Source: Sulfurospirillum sp. (GTDB lineage Bacteria > Campylobacterota > Campylobacteria > Campylobacterales > Arcobacteraceae). From it: DNA of 64,000 nucleotides. The notes beneath the pieces were generated by a model that had not been told where the DNA came from, made no database searches, and worked only from the letters and a program-made list of their open reading frames with translations. The position numbers and the translations under genes were made by a program. Every line of letters begins with the position of its first letter. Position 1 is the stretch's first letter. This document shows positions 2,814 through 31,449 of the stretch, piece by piece. The DNA is taken from NCBI GenBank assembly GCA_030491005.1, contig JAKZMJ010000021.1, forward strand, positions 62,001-126,000, read 5' to 3'.

Positions 2814-3851
2814 TTGAACAAAGAACTAAAAGTACTAACTCTTGATGGTGGTGGTGTCAGAGGCTATTTAAGTGCTAAAATCTTAGCTAATATTGAACAA
2901 TTGCTAAATGAAGCTAATAATGAAAATATTAATATTGGACAAAGATTTGATTTAATAGCTGGTACATCTACTGGTGGAATAATCGCATGTGCATTATCAA
3001 TAGGAAAATCAGCAAAAGAAATTTTCAACCTTTATGAAACTCTCATTCCAGAAGTTTTTATTCCTCAGAATAATGGAATTTTTCAATCAAAATATTCTAG
3101 TGAAATACTAAAAGAAAAACTTGATGATATATTAGGTAGAAATACATTAGCAGATGTAATCACAGATTTATGTATCACAAGTGTTGATGTTGAAAATAGT
3201 TCTCCAAGATTTCATAAGAGTAGTTACTTTGGAAGAAACACAATAAGACTAGATGAAAAATTAATCGATTTAGCATTAGCTACATCTGCTGCTCCCACTT
3301 ACTTTCCTCTTGTTGATACATTACATTCGACAAACTTAACAGATGGTGGTATGGTTGCTAACAATCCATCTTTGGTGGCACTCATTGATGCTATGGAACT
3401 CACAGATAATAATCTTAAAAATATATCATTGATTTCAATAGGTACTGGCGAACAATGTCATATGCCATATGATATAGAAAGTCTAAAAAATGGTGGTAAA
3501 CAAGATTGGATAGTTGATATTGGAACAAATACTAAAGCATCTAAAGTCGTAGAAAATATTAAATGTGGTAAATCAAAATTAAAAATTGCAAAAGATTGGT
3601 TCTTAAGTGATGATGAACAGTTTTCTTCAAAGGGTTCACCTATACTTGAGCTATTAATGGAAAGTCAATCAAAGTTAGCTCATTTTCAAACACAATTTTT
3701 ATTGAAAGATACTTATCTTAGAATAAATCCAAAATTAAGTATACCTATTGAACTTGATGCAGTTGATAAAATAAATAGTTTGAAAAACTTAGCAGATTTA
3801 GAACAACAACAGATTGAAAAAATCAAAAAACTACTTGAGAGAAAGGATTAA
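2814..3851 (+). CDS. capV: Patatin-like phospholipase, CBASS effector CapV
   Basis: 345 residues of the patatin family. The glycine-rich oxyanion motif DGGGVRG is near residue 10, the nucleophile motif GTSTGG has its serine at residue 52, and the catalytic aspartate is in TDGGMVANNP (about 177). Patatins beside a CD-NTase are CBASS effectors that degrade membrane phospholipids once a cyclic nucleotide signals phage infection. The TTG start is supported by AAGGA five bases upstream. The gene is first in the operon and ends 2 bases before the CD-NTase start. All catalytic motifs are present, so it appears functional. Activation by cGAMP specifically is inferred from characterised CapV proteins, not from this sequence. 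Confidence 0.9.
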   Translation: MNKELKVLTLDGGGVRGYLSAKILANIEQLLNEANNENINIGQRFDLIAGTSTGGIIACALSIGKSAKEIFNLYETLIPEVFIPQNNGIFQSKYSSEILKEKLDDILGRNTLADVITDLCITSVDVENSSPRFHKSSYFGRNTIRLDEKLIDLALATSAAPTYFPLVDTLHSTNLTDGGMVANNPSLVALIDAMELTDNNLKNISLISIGTGEQCHMPYDIESLKNGGKQDWIVDIGTNTKASKVVENIKCGKSKLKIAKDWFLSDDEQFSSKGSPILELLMESQSKLAHFQTQFLLKDTYLRINPKLSIPIELDAVDKINSLKNLADLEQQQIEKIKKLLERKD

Positions 3852-3853
3852 TT

Positions 3854-4825
3854 ATGGATTTTGGAAAAGAGTTTGGAGCATTTTATAAAGTCATTAGAAT
3901 TGATAAAGAAAAGAGAATAAGTCTTTTATCAAATAAAAAGGCTCTAAGAACTAAAATAAAAAATAACTTTGAAAAGAAAGACAGAACAAAACCTAAGTTT
4001 TTCATTCAAGGCTCTATGGATACAGAGGTTGCAACTGGTATAAATCCTTTAAATGAAGACTATGATATAGATGATGGTGTTTATTTACAAGATATTAATA
4101 GACAAAGTATTACTCCTGAAACAGCTCATAAATGGGTATATGATGCTGTAGATGGTCATACAAAAGAAACAAAAGATAAATCTAAATGTGTAAGAGTGAT
4201 TTATGCAAATAACGAAAAGCATGTTGATTTACCAATATATGTAGAAGAAGATGGAATATACTACTTAGCAATTAAAGGGAAAGGCTGGATTGAAAATAAC
4301 CCAAAAAAAATCTCTAAATGGTTTCAGGATGAGAGAAAAGCAAAAGGTCACGATTTTAGAAAAGCAGTAAGATATTTAAAAGCATGGAAAGATAAAAGAG
4401 AAAATGATAATAGTAATTTAGAATTATTTGGTGGTTTTCAACTATCAATCTTAGCAAGTGATTATTTTCCAGACTCATATGACAACCTTGAAGAAATGTA
4501 CTTTAAACTTGTTGATAAAATTAATGATAACTCATGGGCTTACCCTAGTTTAGACAATCCTATAAATAGTCTGCAAGATACCATTGAATATTATTCAGAA
4601 GCAAGAATAAAAACTTTTAAAGAAGAGTTTTCCAAAATGTATGAGCAAGCAAAAGATGCTTACGAAGAGACAGATAGTAGTAAAAAGCATACTAAGTGGA
4701 CAAAAATATTTGGTGATAGATTTCCAGAACCTACTGATGATGAGAATGAAGCAAAAAGTTTTGAAACTCCATTAGTTATAAAAGGCACTACTGATATATC
4801 TAAAACATCTGGAAGACAGGCATAA
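3854..4825 (+). CDS. cdnA: CD-NTase (cGAS/DncV-like cyclic nucleotide synthase) of CBASS
   Basis: 323 residues with the nucleotidyltransferase signature FIQGSMDTEVATG (GS at 53-54), then DYDIDDGVYL carrying the metal-binding aspartates (about 71-74), and a third acidic residue in HVDLPIYV (about 124). These proteins make cyclic di- or trinucleotide alarm signals when phage infection is sensed. The DIDDGV motif and the gene order patatin, CD-NTase, Cap2, Cap3 resemble the DncV type, but the protein is shorter than DncV and its product cannot be read from the sequence. The C-terminal tail (SGRQA) may be the site joined to a target by Cap2, as known for type II CBASS. The next gene starts 4 bases on. 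Confidence 0.9.
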   Translation: MDFGKEFGAFYKVIRIDKEKRISLLSNKKALRTKIKNNFEKKDRTKPKFFIQGSMDTEVATGINPLNEDYDIDDGVYLQDINRQSITPETAHKWVYDAVDGHTKETKDKSKCVRVIYANNEKHVDLPIYVEEDGIYYLAIKGKGWIENNPKKISKWFQDERKAKGHDFRKAVRYLKAWKDKRENDNSNLELFGGFQLSILASDYFPDSYDNLEEMYFKLVDKINDNSWAYPSLDNPINSLQDTIEYYSEARIKTFKEEFSKMYEQAKDAYEETDSSKKHTKWTKIFGDRFPEPTDDENEAKSFETPLVIKGTTDISKTSGRQA

Positions 4826-21510: not shown

Positions 21511-21555
21511 ATGTGAGATGATTTAATTCTTAATTTCATTATCTGTAACATCTAA

Positions 21556-23049
21556 GAGCTACTTGCAAATTCAATCACAATCAAATATATAATTCTTAAT
21601 AGTAACTATTTTAAGCTTTAAAAAAATAGTTATTATTTCTAACTTGCATAATTTACAATATATTTACCAAATTTATTAAAAAATCACATTTTTTCTCCAT
21701 TCCTTATGGTTAAATTGTAAAATTCAGTATTTTTATATAAATTTCTATTAATGGTCATGTAATAAGTTTTAAACTTTGATGTATACAAATAGATAAAATT
21801 CCAAATGCTAAAACGCAAGCTACCTTATTTGCCCCTTGATAGTATATTTTATCACATCCAAAGTCATCTTTTAAGTATTTATTTACTCGCTCTACCATAC
21901 TTATTTGGTTATAGTGATGTTTATCTGATGCTTGAGTCAAATTTAAATATTCAAATTTTTCTTTTTCCTCTTTTGCTAAAGCTATTTTTTCTTTTAGCAC
22001 TTTAGAGTTTTTAGGATTTATATCTATGATTGGTTTATGATTTAACTCTTCAGAATACTCTGCAATAATATCACTATCATATCCAGCATCAAGTAAATCA
22101 TGAAGATACATTACTCTTTTGCTAGTTTCATTTATAAGTGGAAGTGCTACAGAACTATCATGAACATTTGCACCACTATAAAATGCAACTACTGGTATAT
22201 CTCCATCAACAACACTAATATGAAGTTTACCACCTATCCAAACTTCTCTATTACCTTTTGAATTTTGTTTAATACCAACTCCACATGATGTTGATACAAG
22301 TGATAACATATCATTAGTAGTTTTCATATCTTTTTGAAGTTCAAGAATCTTTGGTTTTATAGCTTCTCTTTTCTCACCTTTTTTAGGTCTTCCAACTTTA
22401 TTTTTTGCTTTCTCTTTTTTCTCAACTTTTACAGGTTTTTCCCTAAGTGGTATTTTAGTAGCATCACTTGCATTGTACATAAATATAGTATCTGACAAAT
22501 ACTCTTCTATGAATTTTTGATGAGTTTTCTCAGCTATTTTCATATCACTAAGTTGTTCAAACACTCTACTAAATTTAGATTCACTAGGAATATCTATTTT
22601 ATATCTCCATCCACATAATACTCGCAATATTCTATCCCTATGCAGTCTATGAATTAAATCTCTTGTTGTTTGTATATTATAAACTGTATTTAGCAATAAA
22701 TGCCCTTGCTATTTCTTCTCTATCTTTTGGAGTGTTTGTAATTGTTACAATTGTAACATGCTTTTCTATTTGTGCAAAATCTAATATTTTTATTAATTTT
22801 TCTTCTTTAGTGCTTAGTGTTCCTAGTTGTTCTTTTATCTCAGGAAATAAACAATTTTCATGGTTTATAATCCTAAGCCACATTTTTGAAAGATTTGAAG
22901 ATAATTTTGGTATAATATTTTTCATAAGTTGAATCTCTTTTCTGTTAAATTTTAGGATATAAAATTATAACTTATTTGAAATTTGATTCAACTTTTTTTA
23001 CAAATAAAAACCTAAATTATGAACTTATTTGCTAATTTGCAAGTGGCTC
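21556..23049 (-). mobile_element. Unassigned DDE insertion sequence, uninterrupted copy
   Basis: 1,494 bp with ends GAGCTACTTGCAAATT and the complement of GAGCCACTTGCAAATT, flanked by 4-bp duplications CTAA (21552-21555 and 23050-23053). A second, interrupted copy lies at 25491-29502. Confidence 0.88.
21755..22925 (-). pseudogene. DDE transposase of unassigned family, frameshifted
   Basis: Two frames, 22925-22677 (82 residues, MKNIIPKLSSNL...) and 22696-21755 (313 residues), overlap by 20 bases and together make one transposase of about 390 residues. Catalytic candidates are the aspartate in VVDGDIPVVAF, aspartates in LLDAGYDSD and glutamate in SMVERVNKYLK. A basic KNKVGRPKKGEK linker lies between domains. 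The break between frames (AKYSL stop; NTVYNIQTTRD) may be a mutation or a programmed shift. The second copy lacks this spot and cannot decide it. Confidence 0.75.
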
Positions 23050-23143
23050 CTAATAAAACTATATTTATACTCTTAGTCTCTTTTACCATTAATGCACCCT
23101 ATAAATTATTTCACTTCATTTTATCTTCATTTTGTTAAAAAAC

Positions 23144-23178
23144 TGATGAACTGGTGTGGAACAAAACCAGTTCCATCA
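23144..23178. other. Hairpin-forming inverted repeat
   Basis: TGATGAACTGGT pairs with ACCAGTTCCATCA, apart from one bulged base, over a 10-base loop. There is no T run after it, so an operator or messenger structure is as likely as a terminator. Confidence 0.4.
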
Positions 23179-23199
23179 TATCTGTAAAATATAACTACG

Positions 23200-23221
23200 A
23201 ATAAGGGATAACACCCTTATT
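23200..23221. other. Perfect 8-bp hairpin upstream of the gene at 23245
   Basis: AATAAGGG / CCCTTATT around a 6-base loop, 23 bases before the start codon of the next gene. It could be an operator or leader hairpin. Confidence 0.4.
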
Positions 23222-23244
23222 AATAACATACTAAGGATTGAATT

Positions 23245-23640
23245 ATGAAAAAAATAGATTTAACTATATCAACTCAAACAGAGTTATCAACACATATTCA
23301 AAGTATCTGTAATGAGATAGTAGATTTTAAGAAAAATGAAACTGTAAGAGTTGAAAATGCTCTTAATATACTTACAGATGGATTTGATTTGCATAGTAGT
23401 GAGATTGAAAAAATAACTTCAATCCTAGAACCTAAACAAAATGATAGTTATGAAAAATTAGTAAGTGATAGAAAACCCTTACTTAGTAGTTTATGTAATA
23501 TTCTAAATCTCAATATGTTTGATAAGGGTAGAATAAATTGGATATGGAAAATCTTAAAAAGAGAGTTGCTAACAAAAAACACAGAGTTTCTCTTACAACC
23601 AATACCTCTACTAGAAATGTGGCTTAATGAAAATTTTTGA
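23245..23640 (+). CDS. Unknown small helical protein
   Basis: 131 residues starting MKKIDLTISTQTELSTHIQS; an AAGGA ribosome site lies about 8 bases upstream. The sequence is predicted to be mainly helical, with no signal peptide or membrane segment. I do not recognise it. Its stop lies within the start of a histidine-kinase fragment in another frame, so the last few residues may be foreign and the original C-terminus lost. Confidence 0.45.
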   Translation: MKKIDLTISTQTELSTHIQSICNEIVDFKKNETVRVENALNILTDGFDLHSSEIEKITSILEPKQNDSYEKLVSDRKPLLSSLCNILNLNMFDKGRINWIWKILKRELLTKNTEFLLQPIPLLEMWLNENF

Positions 23641-23779
23641 CCCATATTTTACTACAAAATATGAGTATGGTACAGGTATTGGTTTGTATATGACAAAATT
23701 AATCATAGAAGATAAAATGAATGGTCAAATTTTAGTTTCTAATACAAAATATGGAGCTAGATTTGTAATTACAATTTGA
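23627..23779 (+). pseudogene. Histidine kinase, C-terminal ATPase fragment
   Basis: 51 codons reading MKIFDPYFTTKYEYGTGIGL, then YMTKLIIEDKMNGQ and GARFVITI to a stop. These are the F box and G2 box of the HATPase_c domain at the very end of sensor kinases. Nothing of the rest of the kinase is nearby, so it is a deletion remnant. Confidence 0.8.
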
Positions 23780-23882
23780 TTTTATAAATAGTCGTATGTA
23801 GATATTGGGGTAGAATATAGTTCTTTAATTGGTTTGTTTATGTGAGGACATTATGTTGTTCAGAATATATAAAAACATTAAA

Positions 23883-23970
23883 TGGAGGACAAGGAGAGAT
23901 TCGAACTCTCGGTAGTTTTTGCTACGGCTGCCTTCCAAGCAACTGGTTTAAACCACTCACCAACTTGTCC
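23883..23970 (-). tRNA. tRNA-Ser (anticodon GGA)
   Basis: On the minus strand GGACAAG and CTTGTCC form the 7-bp acceptor stem, CCA is encoded at the 3' end, the loop TTGGAAG holds anticodon GGA, a long variable arm (GTAGCAAAAACTAC) is typical of serine tRNAs, and GTTCGAATC forms the T arm. It is flanked on both sides by mobile or broken genes. Confidence 0.95.
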
Positions 23971-24123
23971 AAATAAAAAGCGTATAAAGTTTTAACAAAA
24001 TCTTACTTTAATATCAATTAAACTATTTCAAATGTACTAGTAAAACTAGCAGAATCTATTAAAAACTCCCAATCAAATTTACACTACTTTTTAGCTATAA
24101 TATCTATATAAAAAGGAGATGTT

Positions 24124-25297
24124 ATGGCAAATAAATTTAGAGAGAAATTAGCAGGAAAAAGAAGTAAAAAAGGTTATGAAGAGTTTGCGAAGAAAAATAG
24201 ATTATTACAATTATTAAGTGAAATTCCTGACCATAGAAAAGGGCAAGGTAAACTTCATAAATTAGAGCATATATTATTTTTATCAGTAATTGCACAATTA
24301 ATGGGAGCAGTAAACTATAAAGAAATTTGGATATGGATAGTAAAGCATATTCAAAAAGATAATATTAAAAAACTTTTAGGTGTAGAATTTATAAGAACAC
24401 CAAGTAGAAGTGCTGTTGCTGAGATATTAGCAGAAGTAAAATATATAGAATTAGAAAAAGTTTTTAGAATATGGATAAATGAACTTGTTGATATATCTCA
24501 ATTAGAACAATTAGCAGTTGATGGTAAAGTTATGAATGGAAGTAGTGTTAATGCAAATAAGTCAACAGAAGTATTAAATGCAGTATTAGCTAATAGTGGG
24601 ATAATACTAGCACATAAAAAAATTGCTGATAAATCTAATGAAGTACCAGCACTAAGAGAACTTATTGATGAATTAGATGATAGCTTTATCTATACCTTTG
24701 ATGCCATGAACTCAAAAAAAAACATTAAATAAAATTGAGAATAAGAATAATAATAAATATTATGCTAAATTAAAAGGAAATCAGAAAAAACTTTTAAAAA
24801 AAGCAATAAGTATATCAAATACAAAAGAACTTACAGATATCTACATATCACCTTTAAATCAAGAAGGTAAAAACTTAGTTAAAAGAAAAATATCAACTTT
24901 TACAAATGATAGTTGCTTTTACCATAATAAAATGACACATATAAAAACTATTATTAGAATTGATAAAACTATTCACAAAACTGATAAAAAGACAGGAGAG
25001 ACAAAAGAAATAAACACAATATCATTTGCAATTTCAAATTTTAAAGATAATGCAAAATTCTTTCATGATTTAGGACTAAAACATTGGAAAGTTGAAACTA
25101 TGCACTTTCATAAAGATAAATCACTTTGTGAAGATTTACATACTGCAAATATTAACCCCATGACAATGACAATTTTAAGAAGCTTTGTTATAAATATTTT
25201 ACATCTAAATAAAGTAAAATCTATTAAAAATCAACTACTTGAAAATAGATGGGATTTAGATACTACTTTGTCGCTTTTATTAGGAATTAGTTTTTAG
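24124..25297 (+). pseudogene. ISAs1-family transposase, frameshifted
   Basis: The frame starts at 24124 (MANKFREKLAGKRSKKGYEE) after an AAAGGAG ribosome site and carries LLSEIPDHRKGQGKLHKLEH and the first catalytic aspartate in LAVDGKVMNGS, both typical of ISAs1. At an A9 run (24714-24722) the frame shifts; the second frame (KTLNKIENKNNNKYYAKLKG ... HWKVETMHFHKDKS ... LLLGISF) supplies the remaining catalytic part to 25297. Either the gene is dead or slippage on the A run gives full-length protein. The ends of the element were not located. Confidence 0.8.
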
Positions 25298-25301
25298 TGG
25301 A

Positions 25302-25490
25302 TTAAACTATATAATCTACTTTATTAGAATGTTTAAACATTATACGATTATTTTTAAAACGATCTTTATAGTGTATCTGACCATTATCTTTATGTAACAC
25401 TAAATTTTTATCTATAAAAAACCTACTAGGGTATTCCAATTGATCTTTTTTTGGAGTTGGAGTAAAATTATCATTTACATTAATACCTAT
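25302..25490 (-). pseudogene. Small exported protein, 3' part, split by nested IS
   Basis: Reads GINVNDNFTPTPKKDQLEYP ... KHSNKVDYIV to a stop at 25302. Joining 25486 to 29503 after removing the IS and one 4-bp duplication gives one uninterrupted 107-residue frame whose front half is at 29503-29641. Not recognised. It ends 5 bases from the stop of the ISAs1 transposase on the other strand. Confidence 0.7.
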
Positions 25491-25614
25491 GAGCCACTTG
25501 CAAATTAGCAAATAAGTTCATAATTTAGGTTTTTATTTGTAAAAAAAGTTGAATCAAATTTCAAATAAGTTATAATTTTATATCCTAAAATTTAACAGAA
25601 AAGAGATTCAACTT

Positions 25615-25727
25615 ATGAAAAATATTATACCAAAATTATCTTCAAATCTTTCAAAAATGTGGCTTAGGATTATAAACCATGAAAATTGTTTATTTCCTGA
25701 GATAAAAGAACAATTAGGAACACTAAG
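25615..25727 (+). pseudogene. DDE transposase of the outer IS, 5' fragment
   Basis: About 37 codons (MKNIIPKLSSNLSKMWLRII ... KEQLGTL) identical to the front of the copy ending at 22925; cut by the IS481 end at 25728. Confidence 0.8.
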
Positions 25728-25750
25728 TGTCAAGTTTCACCACGTTGTAC

Positions 25751-27298
25751 CAGCAATTCTAACCCAAAAATAAAACTACATAATATATCCTTTCATATCT
25801 ACATTCTCTTCGGTCTGGCGAGCAATAAGTATATATTCCAACATTTTATTAAAGCTTTTAAAATTAAACATTGTTGTTAAAAAATTAATACCTACAAAGA
25901 ACTCTTCTCTGGTACCAATATTATCACGAAGTTCCATATATAAATCATCATCAAGTTCTTGTACTGTATGAAATAAGAAAGCTAATATATTAAGGCTACA
26001 AAGTGTTTTAGATAGATTTTCTTTTCCATGACCAAAGTTGTGATCTAAATGATAGCCTTTAGTTTTTAAAGTATTGTTATTTTCATTTTCGATTTTCCAT
26101 CTACTTCGTCCTGCTGTTGCTATATCTATAACATTATTTACATTCAAAGATATATCAGTAACAAAGCTATTATGATATAGTTTATTACCCGTAGCATTAG
26201 TAACTATAACTTCACACCAGTTTACTTCTTGTGGTGGATGTTGTGTATCTCCTTGTGGATTTTTAATTGCTAAATTATTAATATAGTTATATGTAAAAAT
26301 TTGCTTTTTACCATTAATCATTTTGGATATTATTTTTGTATCAATAGTATTTAGATTTTTTATCATTTCTATTTGTTCATATAAGTATTTATGTGATGTT
26401 GGTTTAGCTACAAATATATATGAATGGCTCTTATCTAATACTTTTTTTATCATAGGTTCTCTTGAATATAAATCATCACCTAAAATAATAAGTTTTTTAT
26501 TAGTTGGATTATTAAAACTATCTAGCCATCTTTTAGAAGCATTTACTTCACAATCTTGTTTATCTTTACCATCATCATTTGATATAAACTCTTGCATCAA
26601 TGGTATAACTTTTTTTATATCAGGATGTACTATTGTTGGAGTTATAACACTATGATAGTAATGTACTTCACCTGTATCACTATTAGTTTTACTTTGACAA
26701 CATTTACAAGATATATTTTTACTTGAATGATAATGAGTACCATCTAATGCTACAAGCATATAATCATCTTTAAAATAAAATTTATCTAATATTCCTATAT
26801 CTCTTAACTTAACAAGTATTATTTCATATACTTTTTTGAAACTATTGGGTGTTATTTTATCCAACATGTTTCGTATATGATTATCACTTGGTATATCAGA
26901 TATTCCAAACATAGTTTGTGCATTACTGATACCTTTTCTTGTATCAATATCCCTTTGAAAACTTAAGCAAGATTTATTTTGAAAATAAAATACACTAAAT
27001 GCTGATAATATAATATCTTTTAAACTATAAACTAGATTTGTTCTTTGTTTTCTAGTATCTTCTACATTTGATATATTATCTGTAAATGATTCTATTAAAA
27101 AATCGAAAATATTTGTCTGTCTCATTTGTTTAAACACTCCTGTTTATGGGCTTTTATAGGATATATTATAGCTAAAATTAGGTATTAAAAAGCTTGATAA
27201 AGCCTTTAAATAAAGGGTTTTAGTGAATTTGCTTAGTAGTGATTTTTGATATTATTTTGGAAGATTTTAGCTATATAAATTTTCACTTAGAATTGCTG
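25751..27298 (-). mobile_element. DDE insertion sequence copy 2 (ISNCY-like), complete, inside IS481
   Basis: 1,548 bp with perfect 12-bp terminal repeats CAGCAATTCTAA / TTAGAATTGCTG and 9-bp duplications ACGTTGTAC at 25742-25750 and 27299-27307. The duplicated bases belong to the IS481 right end, so this is the innermost and youngest of three nested elements. Confidence 0.93.
25776..27137 (-). CDS. DDE transposase, ISNCY-like, intact
   Basis: 453 residues ending VDMKGYIM, the undamaged version of the gene at 13-1419. It has the same LVALDGTHYHSS, KQDCEVNASKRW and RWKIENENNN blocks, with only scattered substitutions, such as LVKLRD for LDKLRD. A GGAGT ribosome site precedes the ATG. This copy is likely active. 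Family name uncertain. Confidence 0.82.
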   Translation of the reverse strand: MFKQMRQTNIFDFLIESFTDNISNVEDTRKQRTNLVYSLKDIILSAFSVFYFQNKSCLSFQRDIDTRKGISNAQTMFGISDIPSDNHIRNMLDKITPNSFKKVYEIILVKLRDIGILDKFYFKDDYMLVALDGTHYHSSKNISCKCCQSKTNSDTGEVHYYHSVITPTIVHPDIKKVIPLMQEFISNDDGKDKQDCEVNASKRWLDSFNNPTNKKLIILGDDLYSREPMIKKVLDKSHSYIFVAKPTSHKYLYEQIEMIKNLNTIDTKIISKMINGKKQIFTYNYINNLAIKNPQGDTQHPPQEVNWCEVIVTNATGNKLYHNSFVTDISLNVNNVIDIATAGRSRWKIENENNNTLKTKGYHLDHNFGHGKENLSKTLCSLNILAFLFHTVQELDDDLYMELRDNIGTREEFFVGINFLTTMFNFKSFNKMLEYILIARQTEENVDMKGYIM

Positions 27299-28273
27299 AC
27301 GTTGTACCATTCCAAAAACAATATCTTGAAACACATCTGGTAAAATCTTAAATATTTCAGGCTTCGTTTGAAACCAACTTTGAACTGCATTAAATGGAGT
27401 TCTGACTTTTAATTCTTTTCTTAAAGAACCATGTCTTCTATTGAAGTTGTAGTATATCAAAAATTTATTTAAATCTTTTTTAACATCATCTATATTTTCA
27501 TAGTCTTGGGCTTTGATTGTAGCATTTTTAATAGTTCCGTTTACTCTTTCTACCATTCCATTGGTTTGTGGTGTATATGGAGCTGTTAGTCTATGTTCTA
27601 TACTATCTTCTTTACATTCTACATCAAACTTGTGATTACCACTTACAATTCCTTTGCCTCTTGCCCATTTATCTGTAAATTCCAATCCATTATCTGTTAA
27701 AATATGAGTTAAGTAAAAAGGAAAAAACTCTTTACAAACTTTTAGAAATTCAACTGCATTATTAGATGATTTGTTTTCATATACTTTGTAATATAGTAGC
27801 CTTGTAGCTCTGTCTATTGCTACAAATAGATAAAACTTTTGTTTATCAAACTTTGGTAAATAGGTTACATCTATATGCAAATATCCAGGTTCGTATTCTT
27901 TAAATTTCTTTGCTTTTTCTTTTTGTTCTTGTGGGACTCTATTTATATCAAAGGCTTTTAGAGTTCTATAGATATTACTTCTATTTGCATTTGGGATAAT
28001 ATCAACCATTGTATCTACTAGGTCATCTAGTTCCATCCAAGTCATTGTCCTAACTACTTTTATTAACTCTTTTTCTAAAGATGTTAAAGTTGTTTTTATA
28101 TTATGTGGTCTTGAACTTTTATCTTCAATAAAATCCCTATCTTTCCATTTAGAGATAGTTTTAATATTTAGATTATAATTATTTGCTAATTCAACATTTG
28201 TTAAATTAGATTTCTGTATTATTTCTCTTATGTGCTGGTTTGTTCTAGCATTAGAGTGATAGGTTTGTGACAT
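27287..28273 (-). CDS. IS481-type transposase, copy C, last residues replaced
   Basis: 328 residues, identical in layout to copy B, but the final residues GET are replaced by QQF because the inner IS was inserted at the end of the gene. All catalytic residues are present. The element's right terminal repeat is now split from the gene by 1.5 kb, which may hinder transposition of the whole. Confidence 0.88.
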   Translation of the reverse strand: MSQTYHSNARTNQHIREIIQKSNLTNVELANNYNLNIKTISKWKDRDFIEDKSSRPHNIKTTLTSLEKELIKVVRTMTWMELDDLVDTMVDIIPNANRSNIYRTLKAFDINRVPQEQKEKAKKFKEYEPGYLHIDVTYLPKFDKQKFYLFVAIDRATRLLYYKVYENKSSNNAVEFLKVCKEFFPFYLTHILTDNGLEFTDKWARGKGIVSGNHKFDVECKEDSIEHRLTAPYTPQTNGMVERVNGTIKNATIKAQDYENIDDVKKDLNKFLIYYNFNRRHGSLRKELKVRTPFNAVQSWFQTKPEIFKILPDVFQDIVFGMVQRQQF

Positions 28274-28376
28274 ATTTTAAATCCTTATGTGTTGTAAAGA
28301 TTTTACACTTATGTTGTTTAATCTATCACTTTCTTATTTATGAAACTAGGCAACCATAACGTGGTGAAACTGGACA

Positions 28377-29302
28377 ATAATATACAAACAACAAGAGATT
28401 TAATTCATAGACTGCATAGGGATAGAATATTGCGAGTATTATGTGGATGGAGATATAAAATAGATATTCCTAGTGAATCTAAATTTAGTAGAGTGTTTGA
28501 ACAACTTAGTGATATGAAAATAGCTGAGAAAACTCATCAAAAATTCATAGAAGAATATTTGTCAGATACTATATTTATGTACAATGCAAGTGATGCTACT
28601 AAAATACCACTTAGGGAAAAACCTGTAAAAGTTGAGAAAAAAGAGAAAGCAAAAAATAAGGTTGGAAGACCTAAAAAAGGTGAGAAAAGAGAAGCTATAA
28701 AACCAAAGATTCTTGAACTTCAAAAAGATATGAAAACTACTAATGATATGTTATCACTTGTATCAACATCATGTGGAGTTGGTATTAAACAAAATTCAAA
28801 AGGTAATAGAGAAGTTTGGATAGGTGGTAAACTTCATATTAGTGTTGTTGATGGAGATATACCAGTAGTTGCATTTTATAGTGGTGCAAATGTTCATGAT
28901 AGTTCTGTAGCACTTCCACTTATAAATGAAACTAGCAAAAGAGTAATGTATCTTCATGATTTACTTGATGCTGGATATGATAGTGATATTATTGCAGAGT
29001 ATTCTGAAGAGTTAAATCATAAACCAATCATAGATATAAATCCTAAAAACTCTAAAGTGCTAAAAGAAAAAATAGCTTTAGCAAAAGAGGAAAAAGAAAA
29101 ATTTGAATATTTAAATTTGACTCAAGCATCAGATAAACATCACTACAAGCAAAGAAGTATGGTAGAGCGAGTAAATAAATACTTAAAAGATGACTTTGGA
29201 TGTGATAAAATATACTATCAAGGGGCAAATAAGGTAGCTTGTGTTTTAGCATTTGGAATTTTATCTATTTGTATACATCAAAGTTTAAAACTTATTACAT
29301 GA
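28377..29302 (+). pseudogene. DDE transposase of the outer IS, 3' part
   Basis: Reads NIQTTRDLIHRLHRDRILRV onward to QSLKLIT, nearly identical to 22680-21755. An open frame extends upstream to 28340 through the IS481 end (MKLGNHNVVKLDN), which could give a chimaeric start. The N-terminal domain is missing, so it is probably inactive. Confidence 0.8.
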
Positions 29303-29502
29303 CCATTAATAGAAATTTATATAAAAATACTGAATTTTACAATTTAACCATAAGGAATGGAGAAAAAAATGTGATTTTTTAATAAATTTGATAAATATAT
29401 TGTAAATTATGCAAGTTAGAAATAATAACTATTTTTTTAAAGCTTAAAATAGTTACTATTAAGAATTATATATTTGATTGTGATTGAATTTGCAAGTATC
29501 TC

Positions 29503-29641
29503 CTATATTAAAACATACATATTTTTGGTTTACTATTAATTTTTTACTACCAGATTCTAGTATAATATCTCCATTTTTTAAACTTTGAGCATTTAGGTTT
29601 ATTGAAAACATTATAATCAATATTCCGATTGTTTTGGTCAT
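29503..29641 (-). pseudogene. Small exported protein, 5' part
   Basis: Starts MTKTIGILIIMFSINLNAQS, a clear signal peptide, then LKNGDIILESGSKKLIVNQ up to the IS boundary. The open frame to 29459 ends in IS sequence. The complete gene (107 residues with 25302-25486) would encode a small periplasmic or secreted protein of unknown function. It starts 18 bases after the stop of the exported-protein gene at 29660-30547, so the two probably form an operon. Confidence 0.72.
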
Positions 29642-29659: not shown

Positions 29660-30547
29660 TTATTTGTACTTTTGTCGCCATGTACTTGTATCAGCACATT
29701 TCATAATGAAAGTATAATCATTCTTTTTTATAAAAATAAATCTCTTTCCGTTGATAGGTTTTAGAGTAATTGTCATATTTTTATTTTGATATACCTGTGG
29801 TGCAATATTTACTAATTTATCACCATTTTTAATATTTAAAACTATATTATTATTAATATAGAATTTTAATATCTTTTGAAAGTTATTATTTAGCATATCT
29901 TTTTCTTTTTTACAAATATATTTTTGATTTATCATAAATCCAATATTTAAATGAGAACTAGATTTATCTTTTTTTTGCTCATTGATAAAATCTTGTAATA
30001 TTAGCTCTTGATTTAAACTTAATATTTCTTCATTTTTTTTACTAATTTTAGTTTTCTTTTCTTTTAAAATTTTATTTAATCTTTTTATATCTTGTTGAGA
30101 AGCTTTGGTTTTTATTGCTTCCAGCAATAAAAACATAGTTTGTTCTTCATTTATTTTTACAATTGCTTTAATGTAGTATGTAACACCATTCCATTTTTCT
30201 TCTAATATTTTCAATTTAGTGATACTTTCACTAAGTTGGTTTATCTCTTTTTTAACATATTTATTATGTGAATTTTGTTTTATTTCAAAGCTACTTTGGA
30301 TATGTACCCCAACTTCTTCACTTAAAATACTTTTTAATTGTGCTATTGCTTTTTTTCTTGAACTTACTTTACTATCTGTATCACTTGCATTATACTTATA
30401 TTCTCTTATAAATATTTTATCATTTTTTGATGATGGTACATTTATCGTACTGTTATTATAGTTTCTTTCATATTCATTTTTAGCTTGTAAAAGTGTAAAA
30501 GTTCCTATTGATATTGCTAATGCTATTTTTAAAATCTTATTTGACAT
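29660..30547 (-). CDS. Exported protein with LPP20-like N-terminal repeat region, unknown role
   Basis: 295 residues. An N-terminal signal segment (KILKIALAISIGTFTLLQA) predicts export. The SRKKAIAQLKSILSEEVGVHI stretch resembles the helix found in LPP20-type surface proteins. A lysine-rich coiled region follows (residues about 150-195), then a C-terminal part with two cysteines (YICKK, KCADTS) that could form a disulfide. No enzyme motif is seen. It starts 25 bases beyond an attC-like palindrome, as cassette genes do. Function unknown. Confidence 0.65.
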   Translation of the reverse strand: MSNKILKIALAISIGTFTLLQAKNEYERNYNNSTINVPSSKNDKIFIREYKYNASDTDSKVSSRKKAIAQLKSILSEEVGVHIQSSFEIKQNSHNKYVKKEINQLSESITKLKILEEKWNGVTYYIKAIVKINEEQTMFLLLEAIKTKASQQDIKRLNKILKEKKTKISKKNEEILSLNQELILQDFINEQKKDKSSSHLNIGFMINQKYICKKEKDMLNNNFQKILKFYINNNIVLNIKNGDKLVNIAPQVYQNKNMTITLKPINGKRFIFIKKNDYTFIMKCADTSTWRQKYK

Positions 30548-30571
30548 TTATATCGTATCCTTAAAATTAAA

Positions 30572-30667
30572 TTATAACTCTTAGTTAAGCAACATTTTAG
30601 CATACATAATATTAAAATATTATGTAAGTTTAAATGCTAAAATGTTTGCTTCTACGCCTTGTTATAT
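30572..30667 (-). repeat. attC-like imperfect palindrome
   Basis: Outer boxes TTATAAC and GTTATAT pair over 6 bases. Next come unpaired 5-base spacers (TCTTA and GCCTT), then inner boxes GTTAAGC and GCTTCTAC that pair with an extra unpaired base, then a long stem (AACATTTTAGCAT / ATGCTAAAATGTT) and a loop containing a further palindrome, ACATAATATT / AATATTATGT. This is the architecture of integron attC sites. No integrase gene is in the window, and a plain terminator hairpin is the alternative. Orientation is a guess from the neighbouring genes. Confidence 0.5.
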
Positions 30668-30857
30668 GAACCATTCCAATAAAAGGATAAATATCATTAT
30701 ATATTTTCATATTAGAATCTAAGATATATTTATTTATAGAACTTATAAAAAGTCGTAATATTTCAATATTTAGTATTAGTTTATTGTATAGCTTTTTACT
30801 ATTTTTTAAAATTTTAATTAGTAAAAAAATAACTAAATCAATCTTATAAACTATCAT
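30630..30857 (-). CDS. Doubtful small ORF ending inside the attC-like site
   Basis: 75 codons: a hydrophobic N-terminus rich in Ile/Leu/Lys, ending HITRRRSKHFSI within the palindrome. No recognisable domain. Ending inside the recombination site is common for cassette genes, but the composition is also what random A/T-rich sequence gives. Confidence 0.25.
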   Translation of the reverse strand: MIVYKIDLVIFLLIKILKNSKKLYNKLILNIEILRLFISSINKYILDSNMKIYNDIYPFIGMVHITRRRSKHFSI

Positions 30858-30863
30858 TAAAAT

Positions 30864-31449
30864 TCATCTTTTTTTTATATTTTGTATAGTTTGGGTCATT
30901 AATCCTTGAACTACCTTATTATATCTATCTACAACTAAAACCGTTTGGCTTTTAGTACATTTACATTTTTTACACTTAGGTTTGGATTGATTTATTGTGT
31001 CTTTGTCTTGTGTGATTATCTTTATATTTTTTATTTGTGATAACTTTTGAATTACACCATAATATCTAATTATTCCTCTTCTGATACCTCTTTTTCTTGT
31101 GTTATTTTGTGAGCAGTTTGGACAAGTTTTAGTATTTTTTTACAGCCATTTATAAATAAACCTTTTTAAACCCTTATAGTACCTAATCTAACTTAAGTTT
31201 TTAGGCACCCAAAAGTTTCTTTAAGCCGAAATAGCAGTTTTATGTGTATATAAACTAAGATACTCTGCTATCTTTTTACTTGTTGGAAATTGGAATTTAA
31301 TAAATATGACCCATTTCCTATTCGTAATATTATCTATAAAACTTTCGATTTAATTTATATTCATCAGCATATTTATTGAAAATATCTTGAATCTCATAAT
31401 AAGGTTTTTTATTTTGTTTATCATCATTTTTAAGTTCAATTTTACACAT
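30864..31449 (-). pseudogene. IS91-type transposase, decayed remnant
   Basis: Three consecutive minus-strand pieces in different frames. MCKIELKNDDKQ ... YYEIQDIFNKYADEY (31449-31330) resembles the IS91 N-terminus. KFQFPTSKKIAEYLSLYTHK (about 31300-31220) resembles the IS91 AYLxRYTHRxAIS block. TCPNCSQN ... IRYYGVIQKL ... CKKCKCTKSQ (to 30864) looks like its C-terminal zinc-ribbon region. Much of the catalytic centre is deleted, so it is inactive. Confidence 0.55.

Follow-up and report, generated by a model that had tools for sequence, protein, structure and literature searches.

Integrons and their recombination sites

The attC recombination sites of integron gene cassettes are defined by their fold, in which the extra-helical bases lie on the R''-L'' arm, one of them in the L'' box and one 6-8 nt further on (PMC2727003). 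Integrons have already been listed for Campylobacterota (PMC8618304) and epsilon-proteobacteria (PMC2426708). Cassette genes with attC sites and no intI nearby, known as CALIN (cluster of attC sites lacking an integrase; Cury et al., IntegronFinder), are explained as degraded integrons (PMC8618304, PMC9024848). The default of IntegronFinder 2 for a CALIN is two sites, with single-site cases accepted as possible true positives (PMC9024848). Integrase genes themselves also decay: in one survey about one third of intI genes were pseudogenes, and decayed integrons with intI nonsense mutations and multiple copies per genome have been described (Nemergut et al. 2008, PMC2426708).

Closer to the genome discussed here, relatives carry intact IntI scoring over the TIGR02249 cut-off. 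Its close relatives are found in Sulfurimonas, Sulfurospirillum, Sulfurovum and Nitratifractor genomes, and our covariance model R1 (see below) finds attC arrays beside several of them. Within the same family, genome G008 holds a complete integron (C1:368626-374876) with an intact intI and mostly single-gene cassettes, in which R1 finds nine attC, eight of the nine being part of the R1 training set.

We set these systems beside a 96-nt hairpin in a 64-kb stretch of DNA (the window, meaning the whole analysed stretch), which lies on contig C21 of an assembly that comprises 2.69 Mb in 33 contigs and is 97% complete. With the G008-type chromosomal attC, the hairpin shares the box layout, the spacers and the extra-helical positions, and like them it follows a gene in a co-oriented array. 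Those sites, however, are mostly ~69 nt long (some ~133) and lie in an intact integron beside an intact intI, whereas the window site measures 96 nt and stands alone. With the attC of class 1 cassettes (aadA1, aadA2, cmlA and others) it has in common the order R''-spacer-L''-L'-spacer-R', the GTT/AAC cores and the two extra-helical positions, yet it is A+T-rich, its variable stem is longer, and the extra-helical base of the top-strand L'' is G and not the C of class 1 sites. A G in this position also occurs in attC sites of relatives (alignment A2). Like a CALIN, the locus combines attC and a cassette gene without intI nearby, but its single attC falls under the two-site default. The decayed integrons of Nemergut et al. 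resemble it in their damaged and multiplied intI; here, by contrast, one nonsense codon recurs in six copies or fragments, and several contigs each hold a part of the scattered array.

Considering its anatomy, the R1 match, the common breakpoint of its copies, and the other attC arrays and decayed intI in the genome, we regard 30572-30667 as very probably an integron attC, the recombination site of a gene cassette. An earlier interpretation made from the letters alone (the sequence-only reading) had proposed an attC-like site possibly marking an undescribed cassette cluster, orphan cassettes being rarely noted in this bacterial group. Integrons as such are already on record for the group; in the open-licence literature, we found no paper describing Arcobacter attC arrays.

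Anatomy of the hairpin and its neighborhood

The features of the locus, with the evidence for each in brackets, are as follows.

28377-29497, plus strand: insertion sequence terminating the cassette remnant, with a DDE_Tnp_1 transposase at 28340-29302 (domain search, repeat comparison)
29498-29641, minus strand: second small ORF with a signal-peptide-like start, cut off by the insertion sequence at about 29497 (sequence, ORFs; insertion-sequence boundary by repeat comparison)
29660-30547, minus strand: cassette gene for a 295-aa protein that falls in no Pfam or PHROG family (ORF and profile searches)
30572-30667, minus strand: very probable attC site, 96 nt, R''-L''-L'-R' (R1 match, fold, copies and breakpoints)
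30572-30578, minus strand: R' box GTTATAA, crossover expected between G 30578 and T 30577 (the identity of five genomic copies ends here)
30584-30590, minus strand: L' box GCTTAAC (sequence, R1 alignment)
30591-30647, minus strand: long stem and variable terminal structure, including an 8-nt bulge on one side and a 9-bp hairpin at the tip (fold)
30648-30655, minus strand: L'' box GTAGAAGC, in which G 30652 is extra-helical; one A of 30645-30647 is the second such base (R1 alignment, fold)
30661-30667, minus strand: R'' box ATATAAC (sequence; pairs with R' in the fold and the R1 alignment)
30668-30736, minus strand: 3' remnant of the upstream cassette, containing the end of the 75-aa ORF (comparison with the second full copy)
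30857-30630, minus strand: 75-aa ORF ending inside the hairpin (ORF list)

Sequence inspection confirmed the 96-base palindrome. Folded as single-stranded DNA, its + strand reaches -19.9 kcal/mol where shuffles average -6.4 (z -7.1), and its minus strand -20.1 kcal/mol where they average -6.8 (z -6.3); none of 200 shuffles matched this stability. The layered build that had been claimed for it, with cores, 5-base spacers, an extra-helical base and a long stem, is found in the sequence and fold throughout. Only the pairing of the outer cores needs trimming: six of the seven bases pair, and the outermost base of each 7-mer does not. Both 5-base spacers are unpaired, the inner box consists of 2 bp and an extra-helical base, and the long stem contains a second single-base bulge as well as the 8-base one-sided bulge.

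The sequence-only reading had written out the + strand of the element. Its orientation as an attC is that of the minus strand, on which both flanking reading frames also lie, as cassettes should. Integrases use the bottom strand of attC, which is here the + strand. Read on the minus strand, the site is ATATAAC-AAGGC-GTA[G]AAGC ... GCTTAAC-TAAGA-GTTATAA, or R''-spacer-L''-(stem)-L'-spacer-R'. As in attC, the core pair ATATAAC/GTTATAA ends in AAC, begins with GTT and is mutually complementary, and the inner pair GTAGAAGC/GCTTAAC is set off from the R boxes by 5-nt spacers on each side. Compared with the consensus RYYYAAC/GTTRRRY, R'' deviates at one position (A at 3) and R' at two (T at 5, A at 7). 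The two extra-helical bases expected of attC are G 30652 and one A of 30645-30647. Both lie on the R''-L'' arm, the first in L'' and the other about six nt on; the latter is an A on the minus strand and a T on the bottom strand, matching known sites.

The description of the flanks also stood, as the minus-strand gene starts at 30547 with 24 bases between it and the hairpin, and the 75-aa ORF does end within the palindrome. Within the bacterial family, the 295-aa cassette protein has only weak or partial matches, the best of them partial and 43% identical, in two genomes; no relative was found in the named genomes searched. The upstream-cassette remnant is common to the second full attC copy (C21:5641-5715), bar an indel adjoining R''. 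Farther out, window 21555-29500 is crowded with insertion sequences, whose transposases are of the DDE_Tnp_1, rve and DDE_Tnp_1-associated kinds and which recur at several places in the window and contig with 98-99.5% identity. On the other side, window 30880-31230 resembles, by eye, a decayed transposase with a zinc-ribbon start, and 31063-31230 matches C23:17257-17423 at 92%.

Model searches for attC

R1 is a covariance model built from eight class 1 integron attC (enterobacterial plasmids) and ten sites near relatives' intI, with no sequence from the source genome in its training set. A covariance-model check, as had been proposed for the site, was run with it, and its sole match in the 64-kb window covers 30667-30572 of the minus strand, with 23.1 bits and an E-value of 0.0071. 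At whole-genome scale the E-value of this match is about 0.3, and the model evidence by itself is suggestive and not proof of attC. A second attC model, R2, made from sites with the loop cut out, did not report 30572-30667 when run on the window, probably because the stem-loop is too long for it; R2 also lost the 135-nt site C15:1709-1843, despite the trimmed ends of that site being in its training set. Our home-made scanner ranks the window site first in the window, with an equal or higher score in 2 of 12 shuffled 64-kb sequences. A first, simple scanner was dropped, as it failed to tell true sites from shuffles where the DNA is A+T-rich.

With one R1 match in 64 kb, the locus lacks the two neighboring attC of a CALIN, so that the suggested cassette cluster does not hold at this place, while it does elsewhere in the genome. 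Nor is this a complete integron, in which intI and attI would stand beside the array: intI is absent from the window and its copies lie on other contigs, in agreement with the earlier remark that no integrase is nearby. Phage records searched with the window attC gave no match. A 30-base DNA match to the site in another genus (G024:C25) was rejected, as it forms no clear attC.

Other attC sites and decayed integrases

The genome-wide counts given here rest on sequence searches of the genome and of selected stretches. R1 and the scanner find an array of five attC on C15 (176-43, 1843-1709, 2291-2157, 3125-2994 and 3871-3737), which alternate with single minus-strand genes and run away from a decayed intI at 4807. 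They further find three attC on C13 and five at C5:104-113 kb, besides single sites on C16, at C15:342224 and on the window's own contig (C21:856-724). Sites spaced by one gene, which had been named as support for the attC reading, are thus present at several places. That reading is borne out by the R1 match at the exact coordinates together with these further attC.

The genome holds three near-complete intI copies (C15:4807, C2:166389 and C23:29443), all with stop codons, and three fragments (C15:343599, C23:26407 and C23:19495). One TAG codon, which is CAG in the sister species, is common to all six; in C2 and C23 the gene is interrupted by another stop codon as well, and each of the three fragments runs out into a 196-bp element. 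Since the same TAG recurs in all six, the integrase was most likely inactivated prior to its duplication. The copies look mosaic, the 5' end of the C15 intI being identical to the C2/C23 pair and its middle part different, and a 6.8-kb block is common to C2 and C23 with 99% identity. Inside the cassette array of L022, two small overlapping genes (2838-3369) look by eye like a RelB/RelE-type toxin-antitoxin pair, with a diverged copy of the RelB-like antitoxin, again by eye, at L022 1143-1460.

Could the site still be mobile, with an intact integrase acting on it in trans, either one that lies outside the assembly or one that arrives on mobile DNA? The assembly is split into 33 contigs and 97% complete, and relatives do have intact IntI, which leaves some room for this. 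We nevertheless consider it unlikely in view of the six intI copies and fragments, which share one nonsense codon or end, three of them being cut by the 196-bp element as well. An attC that is probably no longer mobile is the reading that we prefer.

The 196-bp element is present in about 30 copies (including L022 967-1173), at C5:1993-13994, C30:206889-212463, C23:19692-27515, C15:336817-348103 and C21:50686 and 54974. It has 24-bp terminal inverted repeats, keeps one orientation per cluster, and codes for a 61-aa helix-turn-helix tail. This tail matches the C-terminal part of a Y1-type (REP-associated) transposase of 260 aa, encoded at C15:347108. The copies cluster in cassette arrays; the element breaks intI at three places and also interrupts some attC halves (L022 3379, 5798 and 9776; L099). 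These repeats, of the same orientation and about one gene apart, were themselves weighed as homogeneous attC sites and rejected: their terminal inverted repeats are long and perfect, they lack R/L boxes, and their sequence matches the final part of the 260-aa Y1-type transposase gene. As a speculative and rather doubtful idea, the element (from a REP-type Y1 transposase gene) may preferentially enter integron attC sites and cassette arrays, and its spread may, with duplication of the already inactive integron, have scattered cassettes like the one in the window over the chromosome.

Copies of the site and their common breakpoint

Stronger evidence, independent of the covariance model, comes from the copies of the site. 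Its right half occurs five times in the genome: in the window, at C21:5504 (full length, 98%), at C5:12215 and C10:3679 (one duplicated piece), and at C1:136445. All five agree through ...AACTAAGAG|TTA and then split into four different sequences, each followed by a same-strand gene start about 16-70 nt past the breakpoint. In integron recombination the crossover falls at G|TT, and as far as the compared sequences go, this common breakpoint is that point; the comparison of copies alone indicates cassette exchange at the G|TT of R'. The two full copies have the upstream cassette end in common (with one indel) and differ in their downstream genes. Such a common upstream end with different downstream genes is expected from cassette exchange and is hard to fit with a terminator or with a mobile element with fixed ends.

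Beyond C21:5504 and its 203-aa gene lies an attC-like hairpin, C21:4859-4788 (CTAAC-AAATT-GCT[G]TAC...GTAAGC-AAAGC-GTTATCC). By eye it is canonical, though none of the models picked it up and it folds only moderately better than shuffles do (14 of 300 as good). On C1, the cassette gene beyond the common right half (L023 8509-8904) codes for a 131-aa, peptidyl-arginine deiminase-like protein (PF04371, profile start only) that is probably truncated.

The five partial or full copies, and the insertion sequences surrounding the locus, are also what a small palindromic mobile element (a MITE, a REP-like element or an insertion-sequence end) resembling attC by chance would bring along. We hold this to be very improbable: the copies are without two defined ends, as two extend leftwards into one upstream sequence and three lack the left half; the right ends all fall at G|TT, and past this point each copy has a gene of the same orientation that is unrelated to the others; and the abundant MITE-like element of the genome has a different sequence. 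A transcription terminator or regulatory RNA hairpin, suggested by the stable single-strand fold between two co-oriented reading frames, is likewise very improbable, with no G+C-rich stem plus T run within 30300-31000 and no Rfam family matched, and it leaves the layered boxes, the spacers, the extra-helical bases and the exact G|TT breakpoint unexplained. The sequence-only reading would have fallen back on a plain terminator hairpin if neither a covariance match nor other sites had turned up; both did.

How the junctions arose and what remains of them

The sequences suggest that IntI made the cassette junctions at G|TT. With a live intI, the + (bottom) strand would have folded into the hairpin 30572-30667, and the two extra-helical bases and an unpaired spacer would have guided IntI on the folded strand. 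IntI would then have cut and joined at the G|TT of R', by the mechanism of the attC literature, and the incoming cassette would have been placed just downstream of attC, here with the gene 30547-29660. The nonsense codon in every intI copy found implies that the window attC is presumably idle now.

What survives in the window is one attC, together with the tail of one cassette and the next cassette's gene; the insertion sequence cuts this remnant off at about 29497. Its lone attC is best explained by a chromosomal integron that was fragmented by insertion sequences and the 196-bp element, with segmental duplication in addition.

The hairpin is a clear new example of a known element type and not a new type, and the biology is the ordinary decay of a known system. 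It shows chromosomal-integron decay in an Arcobacter-like bacterium, with a shared nonsense codon and with cassettes stranded by insertion sequences. The attC junctions of such a decayed integron are still legible through their exact breakpoints. As a divergent, true attC, recognized by a reader of the raw letters, is scored only modestly by a general model, similar lone sites are probably under-counted.
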